From NCBI GenBank assembly GCA_015488115.1, contig WFOK01000063.1, positions 1-46,165 of the forward strand: DNA of 46,165 bases. The letters are read 5' to 3'. The DNA is from Mariprofundaceae bacterium (GTDB lineage: Bacteria > Pseudomonadota > Zetaproteobacteria > Mariprofundales > Mariprofundaceae). Shown here in pieces: positions 20,289 to 22,959 of this stretch. The notes below the pieces were generated by a model. The model did not search any database. It was not told where the DNA came from and saw nothing but the letters and a program-made list of their open reading frames with translations. The position numbers and the translations under genes are program-made. The first letter of the stretch is position 1; each line of letters begins with the position of its first letter.

Positions 20289-21188
20289 TCAGGCAGCCCG
20301 GCAGACCCTGTTCCGGCCGGTGCGCTTGGCTTGATAGAGTGCCCCATCCGCCGCCTCGATCAGGGCTTCCGGCTGACTGCGCTCCTCACTCAGGCCGGCT
20401 ACCCCGATGGACACAGAACAGCGAAATGTGCTCTTCCCGTACCGGAGCTCCGACTGCTCCACCTGAAGCCGCAGGCGTTCGGCACAATGCATCGCATCTT
20501 CGACATCGGTATGAGGCAGGATGACCACGAACTCCTCTCCGCCGAACCGGGCCGCAAAGTCCTGCTCTCGGCATGATGAAAGCAGCAGGCCGGCCACCTT
20601 CCTCAAACAGGCGTCTCCCGCCGGATGCCCATGGGTGTCGTTGATCTGCTTGAAATGATCGATATCCAACATCATCAGCGACAGGGGGTACTGGTAACGG
20701 ATTGCTCGCGCCAACTCGGCGGACAATTGCTCCTGCAGGGCATGCCGATTGTACAATCCCGTCAGGGCGTCCCTCTTGGCCAGCATCTCCAGCTCAGCGC
20801 GCGACGGAACCACATGCAACGGCAGCAAGCTAGCGATTTCCCGACATCGCACGGCATCCGCGCGGGCATGAGACAGCGGACAATACAATTCCAGCCTCGA
20901 AGCATGGCGCCTGCAACCGTAGGGCAGTTCATCAAGAAAGGAGGGAACAGGCCATGTCGGCACCCAGGGGCTGAAGTCCAGGCGCAACGCATCGCCCTCC
21001 ACGCCGATGGCGAGCCTGCCCTGAACCTTGTGAAGCATCAGCAGCCTGGCCACCTCGCTGGCCATGACCGTCACACGCACGGCTTCCAGCGGAGCGATGC
21101 CCAACTGGTCGGCGATGAACAACAGCCGGTTCCGCAGGCCGACCTGGCTGGCCGGCGCCATCAGGGGCACGCGCGTGATCAGATGCAT
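20289..21188 (-). CDS. GGDEF diguanylate cyclase with N-terminal degenerate ATPase-like domain
   Basis: A 299-aa cytoplasmic protein. Residues 135-299 form a complete GGDEF domain: DALTGLYNRHAL at 140, DIDHFKQINDTHGH at about 175-188, active-site GGEEF at 216-220, and the inhibitory I-site REQD at 207-210, exactly five residues before it, so cyclic-di-GMP synthesis with product feedback is expected. Residues 1-110 look like a worn RsbT-type ATPase domain: the helix VTVMASEVARLLML matches the N-box pattern but its Asn is replaced. The ATG at 21188 has AGGAGG 5-6 nt upstream and overlaps the phosphatase gene by 10 bp. It is the likely output of the Rsb-like genes upstream. Confidence 0.88.
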   Translation of the reverse strand: MHLITRVPLMAPASQVGLRNRLLFIADQLGIAPLEAVRVTVMASEVARLLMLHKVQGRLAIGVEGDALRLDFSPWVPTWPVPSFLDELPYGCRRHASRLELYCPLSHARADAVRCREIASLLPLHVVPSRAELEMLAKRDALTGLYNRHALQEQLSAELARAIRYQYPLSLMMLDIDHFKQINDTHGHPAGDACLRKVAGLLLSSCREQDFAARFGGEEFVVILPHTDVEDAMHCAERLRLQVEQSELRYGKSTFRCSVSIGVAGLSEERSQPEALIEAADGALYQAKRTGRNRVCRAA

Positions 21189-21763
21189 GCTTGCCTCCTG
21201 ACGACAGCGCAACTGGCATCATCGGTTTCCTTTGCGTATTGACGCATGAGGAGATCGACAACCTCCTCGCAGGAACGCTCATCCATGCCCGCAAGCGCCT
21301 CGTCCCCGAAATGGGACGACAGCCCGTCGGAATGCATGATCAGCAGATCGCCTTCGGTGAAGGGATGTCTGGCTTGTCTTGGCTCGGCCACGATGTAGCC
21401 GATGACGCCATCACGGCTGACATGTTGCCGCGCATGACGACCGGCAATGCGCACGAAGATATTGCCCACGGCGCCGCAGGTGAGGCCTTCCTCGTCGAGC
21501 AATGCACTGGCGGCCACCATGCCGCGCGACCCCCTGAACTGTCGGTGCATCTCGCGCAACAGGCATGCGGGCTCCGTCAGCGGCCTGGCCTTCAGCCAGT
21601 CGAGCACCTGGCCGGCAAGCTCGGCCGCCTCCCGTCCATGGCCGAGCACATCCACCAAGGTGACCTGAAGCCTGACTTCGCAACCCGTGATGCAGCAGAC
21701 ATCACCTGCGACCTTCTCTCCGGGCATGGGGCGCACGCGCCAGGCATACTCGAAGCCCCTCAT
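21179..21763 (-). CDS. SpoIIE/PP2C-type phosphatase (RsbX-like)
   Basis: A 194-aa single-domain serine phosphatase of the PPM/SpoIIE class. Metal-binding motifs are present: GDVCC at about 20, VDVLGHG at 37-43, HSDGLSS at 144-150 and TDDASCAVV at 180-188. In stressosome systems RsbX removes phosphate from the STAS proteins RsbR/RsbS to reset the signal; the same role is inferred here from size and location. ATG 21763 overlaps the RsbT-like stop by 4 bp; ATG 21778 is an alternative. It is second to last in the five-gene operon. Confidence 0.85.
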   Translation of the reverse strand: MRGFEYAWRVRPMPGEKVAGDVCCITGCEVRLQVTLVDVLGHGREAAELAGQVLDWLKARPLTEPACLLREMHRQFRGSRGMVAASALLDEEGLTCGAVGNIFVRIAGRHARQHVSRDGVIGYIVAEPRQARHPFTEGDLLIMHSDGLSSHFGDEALAGMDERSCEEVVDLLMRQYAKETDDASCAVVRRQACI

Positions 21764-22185
21764 GGGCAATGCTTCCATGCGCGCACCCGAACCCCCTGGC
21801 CAGGCCTGCTCTCAATCGTCACCCGATCCATGATTCGCTTGACCGAAGGCAACCCCAGTCCCAGCGTTCCCCGCGTACTGTAGCCTTCGCTCAGGGCCTG
21901 CTCGACATCCACGATGCCCGGCCCGTGATCGCAAACCTCCAGCTCGATCGTCGAGGAGGGTCCGCGTCTGCAGCGAATGAACACTTCTCCGCCACCGGCA
22001 TGATAAAGCGCATTGCGCGCCAGCTCGGACATGGCCGTGGCCACCAGAAATGCCTGCGTCATCGGAAAACCCAACGCAAGGCAGCGGCGACGGCATTCAA
22101 GAACGGCCTGTTGAACATCATCCTCGCTCCGGATACGACCACGCCATGCCTCATCGAACGCACCGGGTTCCTCATGCCCGGGCAT
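21760..22185 (-). CDS. rsbT: RsbT-like serine kinase (HATPase_c)
   Basis: A 141-aa GHKL-type ATPase similar to the switch kinase RsbT. The N-box MSELARNALYHA (Glu54, Asn58) is intact, as are the G1 box CDHGPGI (Asp86) and the G2 box GTLGLGLPSVKRIMD. RsbT phosphorylates STAS-domain scaffold proteins and then leaves them to bind a downstream partner. The start is uncertain: ATG 22185 gives the usual RsbT length and overlaps the STAS gene by 14 bp, but no strong ribosome site is seen; a longer frame begins at 22248. The partner is probably the cyclase in the same operon rather than RsbU (inference). Confidence 0.82.
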   Translation of the reverse strand: MPGHEEPGAFDEAWRGRIRSEDDVQQAVLECRRRCLALGFPMTQAFLVATAMSELARNALYHAGGGEVFIRCRRGPSSTIELEVCDHGPGIVDVEQALSEGYSTRGTLGLGLPSVKRIMDRVTIESRPGQGVRVRAWKHCP

Positions 22186-22546
22186 CGGAAAGCAGCTCGG
22201 CGATGGCCTGGTCAAGCGTGGCACACGGCCTTGCGTCCATGTCCTCAAAGCCGGTCAGCACCAGGGCACTGGCAAGTCCGGCGGAGATCCCGGTCATGCG
22301 CACGGGAACGCCGAGCGCGCGCACGGCCCTGGCCAGGCGGAAAATCTCGGCCATGACGCCATGATCCACGGCCTTTAGCTGGGCAAGGTCCAGCACCATG
22401 CCACAAACCTGAAGGCCATCCACAAGCTCGCAGACCCTGCCCGTCAGCGCAGGCATCATCGAAGTCTCGATATCTGCCGGCACGGCGAAAATGGCCAGAC
22501 CGCGAACCACGCGAATCAGATCACGCACATCGTCGCCGGCATCCAT
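22172..22546 (-). CDS. rsbS: RsbS-like STAS protein with His at the phospho-Ser site
   Basis: A 124-aa single STAS domain resembling RsbS, the stressosome scaffold that sequesters RsbT. Strand MVLDLAQLKAVD is followed by the switch loop, and VRMTGISAGLASALVLTGF matches the second half of RsbS. In known RsbS the loop reads Asp-Ser and the Ser is phosphorylated; here it is Asp61-His62. It starts 2 bp after the upstream STAS gene and has no clear separate ribosome site. Loss of the phospho-acceptor suggests a constitutive or differently controlled scaffold. Confidence 0.75.
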   Translation of the reverse strand: MDAGDDVRDLIRVVRGLAIFAVPADIETSMMPALTGRVCELVDGLQVCGMVLDLAQLKAVDHGVMAEIFRLARAVRALGVPVRMTGISAGLASALVLTGFEDMDARPCATLDQAIAELLSDARA

Positions 22547-22548
22547 GC

Positions 22549-22959
22549 TCAGCCTGCGGATTCAGCCCTGATCGAAAACCCCAGCTCCCTGAAGGCAAAG
22601 GACAGCGCATCCTTCACGCGGCCCGTGCAGGCGATGTCGGCCAAGTCGACCCCGACATTGACCAACGACTGGGCAACCGCCGGCGTCACGCCGGAAAGAA
22701 TCGTCGTGCACCCGAGCATGCGGGTGGCCTTGGTGATCTTGATGATGTGATTGGCCACGGCGCTATCGACAGCGGCCACGCCGCGAATATCGAGAATGGC
22801 AAACCGCGCCGCGGTCTGTTCGGCCCTTTCCAGTAGAACGTCCATGATGTCCTGGGCCCGCTTCGAATCCACCAAGCCGACCACGGGAAGAAACAGGATG
22901 TCATCCCACAACAGATTGACCGGATTGGCCTCGTACTTTTCCAGATCGACATTGCTCAT
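22549..22959 (-). CDS. RsbR-like STAS protein without sensor domain
   Basis: A 136-aa STAS protein closest in appearance to the C-terminal domain of RsbR. It has ILFLPVVGLVDSKRAQDIM and VDSAVANHIIKITKATRMLG, the loop Asp65-Ser66 aligning with RsbR Thr171, and AQSLVNVGVDL with Ser98 aligning with Thr205. Both positions stay phosphorylatable. The usual N-terminal globin-like sensor is missing; only about 20 residues precede the STAS fold. ATG 22959 has GGGAGGGG 5-6 nt upstream. It heads the five-gene operon and follows a 75-bp gap. Confidence 0.8.
   Translation of the reverse strand: MSNVDLEKYEANPVNLLWDDILFLPVVGLVDSKRAQDIMDVLLERAEQTAARFAILDIRGVAAVDSAVANHIIKITKATRMLGCTTILSGVTPAVAQSLVNVGVDLADIACTGRVKDALSFAFRELGFSIRAESAG

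Follow-up and report, generated by a model that had tools for sequence, protein, structure and literature searches.

The window analysed here is a stretch of 46,165 nucleotides from a Mariprofundaceae bacterium (Zetaproteobacteria; contig WFOK01000063.1), and the minus strand of its 20289..22959 region carries five tightly packed genes. The first is an rsbR-like gene (22549..22959; ATG at 22959, stop at 22549), which encodes 136 aa consisting of a STAS domain alone (Pfam, 1.1e-11) and has a Shine-Dalgarno-like sequence, GGGAGGGG, on its 5' side by direct reading. An rsbS-like gene (22172..22546) follows after a gap of +2 bp; its product is a 124-aa STAS protein (2.5e-7) with His at the Ser59-equivalent position. 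It overlaps by 14 bp with an rsbT-like kinase gene (21760..22185; ATG at 22185), whose 141-aa product matches HATPase_c (7.6e-13) and HATPase_c_2 (3.7e-12) and bears Val in place of the alpha-1 Arg. The rsbX-like gene for a PP2C phosphatase (21179..21778; SpoIIE, 2e-8) overlaps the kinase gene by 19 bp when read from the ATG at 21778, or by 4 bp from the alternative start at 21763. The last gene (20289..21188; ATG at 21188) overlaps rsbX by 10 bp and encodes a 299-aa diguanylate cyclase (GGDEF, 6.6e-51), in which an N-terminal domain of predicted GHKL fold (20766..21188, residues ~1-140/141), termed pseudo-RsbT below, precedes the GGDEF catalytic domain (20307..20780). Coordinates and Pfam matches agree for all five genes, in the order and tight packing given by the initial annotation.

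The catalytic parts of the module are preserved. In RsbT, the ATP boxes are intact (N-box SELARN, G1 DHGPGI and G2 LGLGL), and RsbX has the metal-site motifs VDVLGHG, HSDG and TDDA. The cyclase combines a GG(D/E)EF signature (RFGGEEF) with an RxxD I-site (REQD), as expected by sequence of an active enzyme, and c-di-GMP is upheld as the likely output. The proposed lack of RsbU holds both locally and genome-wide: RsbU_N (PF08673) is absent from the cyclase and from the window's genome. An RsbU encoded elsewhere in that genome was rejected on the same ground, and the other SpoIIE matches there are Stp-like PP2C phosphatases. In the corresponding search for an RsbW elsewhere, a second HATPase_c_2 match above the cut-off came up at C72:12950.

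The RsbR of the window is most similar in the PDB to the STAS domain of Vibrio vulnificus RsbR (E 1.2e-36), and both of its Ser/Thr phosphosite positions are Ser. An N-terminal sensor is found on RsbR neither in the window nor in the other four genomes with the same five-gene order, in which RsbR is likewise STAS alone, and the ~75 bp between RsbR and the upstream gene leave no room for a sensor domain. A sensor-bearing RsbR encoded elsewhere was also considered, and a search of the window's genome (98.65% complete) gave no second RsbR; these results together bear out the missing sensor domain. The remaining STAS genes of this genome encode two SulP transporters and one orphan RsbV-like protein with the canonical Ser (L024:1480-1809, in G000:C43). 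At the Ser59 position, RsbS has His in the window and H, S, R and C in the other four genomes. The altered RsbS site noted initially is thus real but not peculiar to this locus, as 14 of 19 related modules lack the phosphosite. It was not retained as the main finding because it recurs in these modules and is known from V. brasiliensis, in which the RsbS phosphosite is reported not to be conserved (PMC4976288).

The search for further genomes, as proposed initially, found the rsbR-rsbS-rsbT-rsbX-GGDEF order with STAS-only RsbR in five of the 78 genomes of the class Zetaproteobacteria, including that of the window. The chromosomal sites differ in at least three of the five: rlmB adjoins the operon in the window and in genome G003, and other neighbours are present in G001 and G091. 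Occurrence in five genomes at differing sites indicates that the operon is neither a product of chance nor a lone oddity, and this recurrence, together with gene order and Pfam matches, supports the annotation of a compact stressosome-type module of RsbR, RsbS, RsbT and RsbX (RSTX). Of 398 genomes sampled more widely across the phylum, 38 have RsbR, nearly all in frames of ~270-420 aa; short RsbRs are those of the five-gene-order genomes and G329, and G079 has a 225-aa frame with a stop. A STAS-only RsbR in all five genomes, with no other RsbR in the window's genome and a module that is rare in the sample, could be the sign of a decaying or constitutive module without input that is kept as a c-di-GMP set-point. 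This is most improbable, however, because RsbT, RsbX and the cyclase have their catalytic motifs in all five operons, both RsbR phosphosites are intact across these clearly diverged copies, and RsbX is retained. A second lineage with STAS-only RsbR is seen in a KSB1 MAG (L016:1779-3029), in which a response-regulator gene comes before it and the contig ends ahead of the output gene.

Cyclase residues 1-140 have no Pfam or NCBIfam match. In genome searches with this N-terminal part across the 398 genomes, 47 of 51 matches, RsbTs included, adjoin an RsbR gene; matches were sorted into RsbTs and outputs by frame and position. At the matched loci, the first gene after RSTX encodes a common N-terminal domain of ~110-150 residues, behind which stand different modules, namely HisKA-HATPase-REC-Hpt, HisKA-HATPase, GGDEF-EAL or GGDEF. 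Carriers include hybrid histidine kinases of Vibrio and Thalassotalea, GGDEF-EAL proteins of Zetaproteobacteria, and proteins of Bacillota and an archaeon, the last two known from MAGs and hence open to binning errors. Pfam annotates none of the output N termini in Vibrio maerlii, Thalassotalea, Xanthomonadales, Bacillota and the archaeon.

Profile comparison links these N termini. Using hhalign, the domains of the zetaproteobacterial cyclases align with the N termini of the other outputs at 98.2% (E 5.6e-14, 130 columns), with a maximum of 0.4% in 40 column shuffles. With the zetaproteobacterial cyclases left out, the profile still recovers the window's cyclase (E 3.3e-5 in a set of 1832 ORFs); its remaining matches are exclusively RsbTs, RsbT domains and outputs. 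A search for further relatives of the domain on plasmids found none, and no published description of it was found in the openly readable literature.

The output domain also aligns with the first half of RsbT (94.5% in hhalign), compared with at most 1.4% for RsbS, RsbR and RsbX and at most 0.6% in 60 shuffles. As a fold search with the whole cyclase was swamped by GGDEF matches, the N domain was modelled alone. The AlphaFold model (pLDDT 89) retrieves RsbW with a Foldseek probability of 1.00 and SpoIIAB with 0.98, after which the probability drops to 0.25; the E-values are modest (1.4e-3). A PDB sequence search with the domain alignment gave weak, unrelated matches, so that the kinship is visible by fold and profile comparison only. 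The N-box Asn, the G1 DxGxG and the G2 GxG are missing in 17 of 17 output domains, the lone regular-expression match (L062) being situated in a linker. Judged from profile and modelled fold, the output domain is a catalytically dead RsbT paralogue, a pseudo-RsbT with the RsbW/SpoIIAB/RsbT fold. The ATPase-like N terminus described in the initial annotation is consequently sustained as to its fold, with the ATP-binding residues gone, but it is a recurrent domain rather than an isolated oddity.

Outputs of some other modules begin with an intact RsbT-like domain; nine were seen, including L110:5281-7044, L116:4010-5773, L121:4889-6652 and L126:4135-5964, with Arg, N-box, G1 and G2 all complete. 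Such a domain is likely to represent an earlier stage of the pseudo-RsbT.

One residue of the kinase fold is retained throughout. In SpoIIAB, Arg20 lies 25 residues before Ser45-Glu46 (numbering from PMC10345196), and RsbW Arg23, which bonds RsbV Asp23 (PMC7340262), lies 25 residues before Ser48-Glu49. In Listeria RsbT, Glu45 is catalytic (PMC9237128), which with the same spacing places the alpha-1 Arg at position 19, and R19 of RsbT is named in the interface with RsbU (PMC12143880). The window's cyclase has Arg19 and Ser44-Glu45, and the alpha-1 Arg is kept in 17 of 17 output domains. By analogy, this position corresponds to the partner-binding position of RsbW, SpoIIAB and Bacillus subtilis RsbT. 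Invariance of Arg19 argues against the idea that the cyclase is merely co-transcribed with a decayed or unrelated N terminus while RSTX has another target, such as the orphan RsbV-like protein in G000:C43. The presence of that gene and the low identity of the domain between lineages (15-22%) are in favour of this idea, but gene order and domain are conserved across genera, unrelated output types share the domain in the same slot, and the other SpoIIE matches of the genome are Stp-like PP2C proteins; mere co-transcription is therefore improbable.

RsbT and RsbS have changed in the modules that bear the domain. The RsbT alpha-1 Arg is present in 0 of 19 domain-bearing modules, which have V, M, I, L, S or T instead, versus 22 of 22 without the domain, and the RsbS Ser/Thr site is present in 5 of 19 versus 22 of 22 (L106, a duplicate of L020, is not included in the RsbS figures). 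The first RsbR phosphosite is kept in all, and the second in 15 of 19 domain-bearing modules versus 22 of 22. In the RsbT tree, the domain-bearing modules form one clade (93/85). The changes in RsbT, RsbS and the domain are thus linked but amount to one ancient event and not many independent ones, so that the Fisher values for the RsbT (4e-12) and RsbS (3e-7) contrasts are not independent evidence. L130, L014 and L016 were left unclassified in this division. Of these, L130:5703-8852 (G329) fits neither class: it encodes a STAS-only RsbR-like protein, an RsbT-X fusion with Ile at the alpha-1 position, and a PAS-GGDEF-EAL output without the pseudo-RsbT domain.

The module shares a STAS core, a switch kinase and a feedback phosphatase with the RsbRST-RsbU-SigB system of B. 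subtilis. In that system, phosphorylation of RsbS releases RsbT, which binds RsbU_N and thereby activates RsbU. The operon in the window has no RsbU, RsbV, RsbW or sigma factor. It also lacks RsbU_N, its RsbT has lost the residue that binds RsbU, its RsbS has lost the site that governs release, and its output carries a dead RsbT with the Arg still in place. Docking of the output on STAS is the most economical interpretation. In this best reading, the output itself, rather than free RsbT, would dock on and leave the STAS core. RsbR, with STAS only, would form the core with RsbS; RsbT would phosphorylate RsbR and RsbX would reverse this; and the N domain of the cyclase, the output of the module, would dock on the STAS core, or pair with RsbT, via the Arg19 surface, which in kinases of the RsbT family ordinarily serves for partner binding. 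Docking would change once RsbT had phosphorylated RsbR, and the cyclase would thereby be switched, probably through pairing of its GGDEF domains. Docking is supported by the conserved operon and by the shared domain, which has an RsbT-family fold but no ATP boxes, together with the corresponding changes in RsbT and RsbS. In V. vulnificus, RSTX mutants and mutants of the output protein D1 are similar in phenotype (PMC10014275), which also counts in its favour. As a whole, with particle assembly, the binding partner, the sign of the switch and the input signal inferred, this explanation of the window's operon is probably correct.

The main rival is a heterodimer with RsbT. RsbT freed from the core would bind or phosphorylate the cyclase, as in Moorella, and the N terminus would be a mere landing site, e.g., for a GHKL heterodimer formed via beta-1 and alpha-1. 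The RsbT kinase is intact, GHKL members dimerise via alpha-1 and beta-1 (PMC7340262), which is the half of the fold that the cyclase domain retains, and Moorella RsbT controls its own cyclase (PMC12143880, PMC7647112). RsbU_N is absent from the cyclase and the genome, however; in 19 of 19 such modules RsbT is without the alpha-1 Arg, to which a part in binding RsbU is ascribed; and the eroded RsbS site is the one whose phosphorylation frees RsbT. Moreover, no positive interaction result was obtained for V. vulnificus RsbT and D1 (PMC9237108), which is evidence against direct pairing and not against docking on the core. Coupling of the Moorella type is thus rather unlikely.

Pairing of stressosome genes with a cyclase is itself known, as the initial annotation pointed out, although the parallel is looser than implied. 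As far as the accessible accounts describe it, the Moorella thermoacetica stressosome with MtG (Quin et al. 2012, via PMC12143880, PMC7647112) is similar in having R-, S-, T- and X-type genes beside a GGDEF cyclase and c-di-GMP as output. MtG is described as RsbU_N-GAF-GGDEF (PMC12143880), and in the window's cyclase the pseudo-RsbT domain replaces RsbU_N. The window further differs from what these accounts describe for Moorella in its RsbR without a sensor, its RsbT without the alpha-1 Arg and its RsbS with His at the phosphosite. The cyclase N terminus, and not the pairing of stressosome and cyclase, is the new element.

The Vibrio-type RSTX-D1-D2 modules (V. vulnificus, PMC9237108, PMC10014275; V. 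brasiliensis, PMC4976288) share the RSTX order, an RsbU_N-free output and an unconserved RsbS site with the window. The same N-terminal domain is present on the outputs of related modules in V. maerlii and Thalassotalea, and the comparison rests on these rather than on D1 of V. vulnificus. In the Vibrio type, RsbR has a haem globin sensor and the output is a hybrid kinase, whereas the window has neither and encodes a cyclase instead. In Pseudomonas aeruginosa SiaABCD, too, a cyclase is controlled by a STAS-like protein whose phosphorylation depends on a kinase/phosphatase couple, but the proteins are different: SiaC binds SiaD, a stressosome core is lacking, and the cyclase bears no pseudo-kinase domain. 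Judged from its genes, the zetaproteobacterial locus is best explained as a minimal stressosome with a distinct type of coupling.

What makes the locus most interesting is its pseudo-RsbT output domain, which recurs in other modules. Most downstream proteins of Gram-negative stressosomes are without RsbU_N (PMC9237108), and the domain may be the plug that links these stressosomes to their outputs, which is testable by point mutants. If so, a shared plug would explain how one core can drive cyclases, GGDEF-EAL proteins and histidine kinases. More tentatively, it is quite possible that output sequestration is the working principle of a large, ancient branch of stressosomes that spans Proteobacteria and Bacillota and perhaps extends to Archaea. 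The core would then hold or release an output bearing a dead RsbT, and RsbT would stay in place as a kinase instead of departing to activate the output.

RsbR matches of another type are present in eight further zetaproteobacterial genomes and at a second site in G091. Most of those read over their whole length carry an extended N-terminal part (RsbRD_N in the scanned ones), with GGDEF-EAL proteins, hybrid kinases or RsbU_N-GGDEF proteins as the outputs seen. At one zetaproteobacterial locus (L064:4499-9893, G092:C25), R-S-T-T'-X genes, with two RsbT-like kinases, are followed by genes for an RsbU_N-GGDEF cyclase, which is a Moorella-type cyclase in the same family, and an RsbU_N-PAS-HK-REC protein. 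RsbT-RsbX-like fusions (HATPase + SpoIIE) occur in L057, L058, L059, L060, L063 and many others, sometimes replacing separate RsbT and RsbX. Directly upstream of rsbR, L014:2543-4450 and L015:2592-4451 encode a Cache-HAMP-STAS protein (Pfam scan of the L014 copy), which is perhaps a membrane sensor feeding the stressosome.
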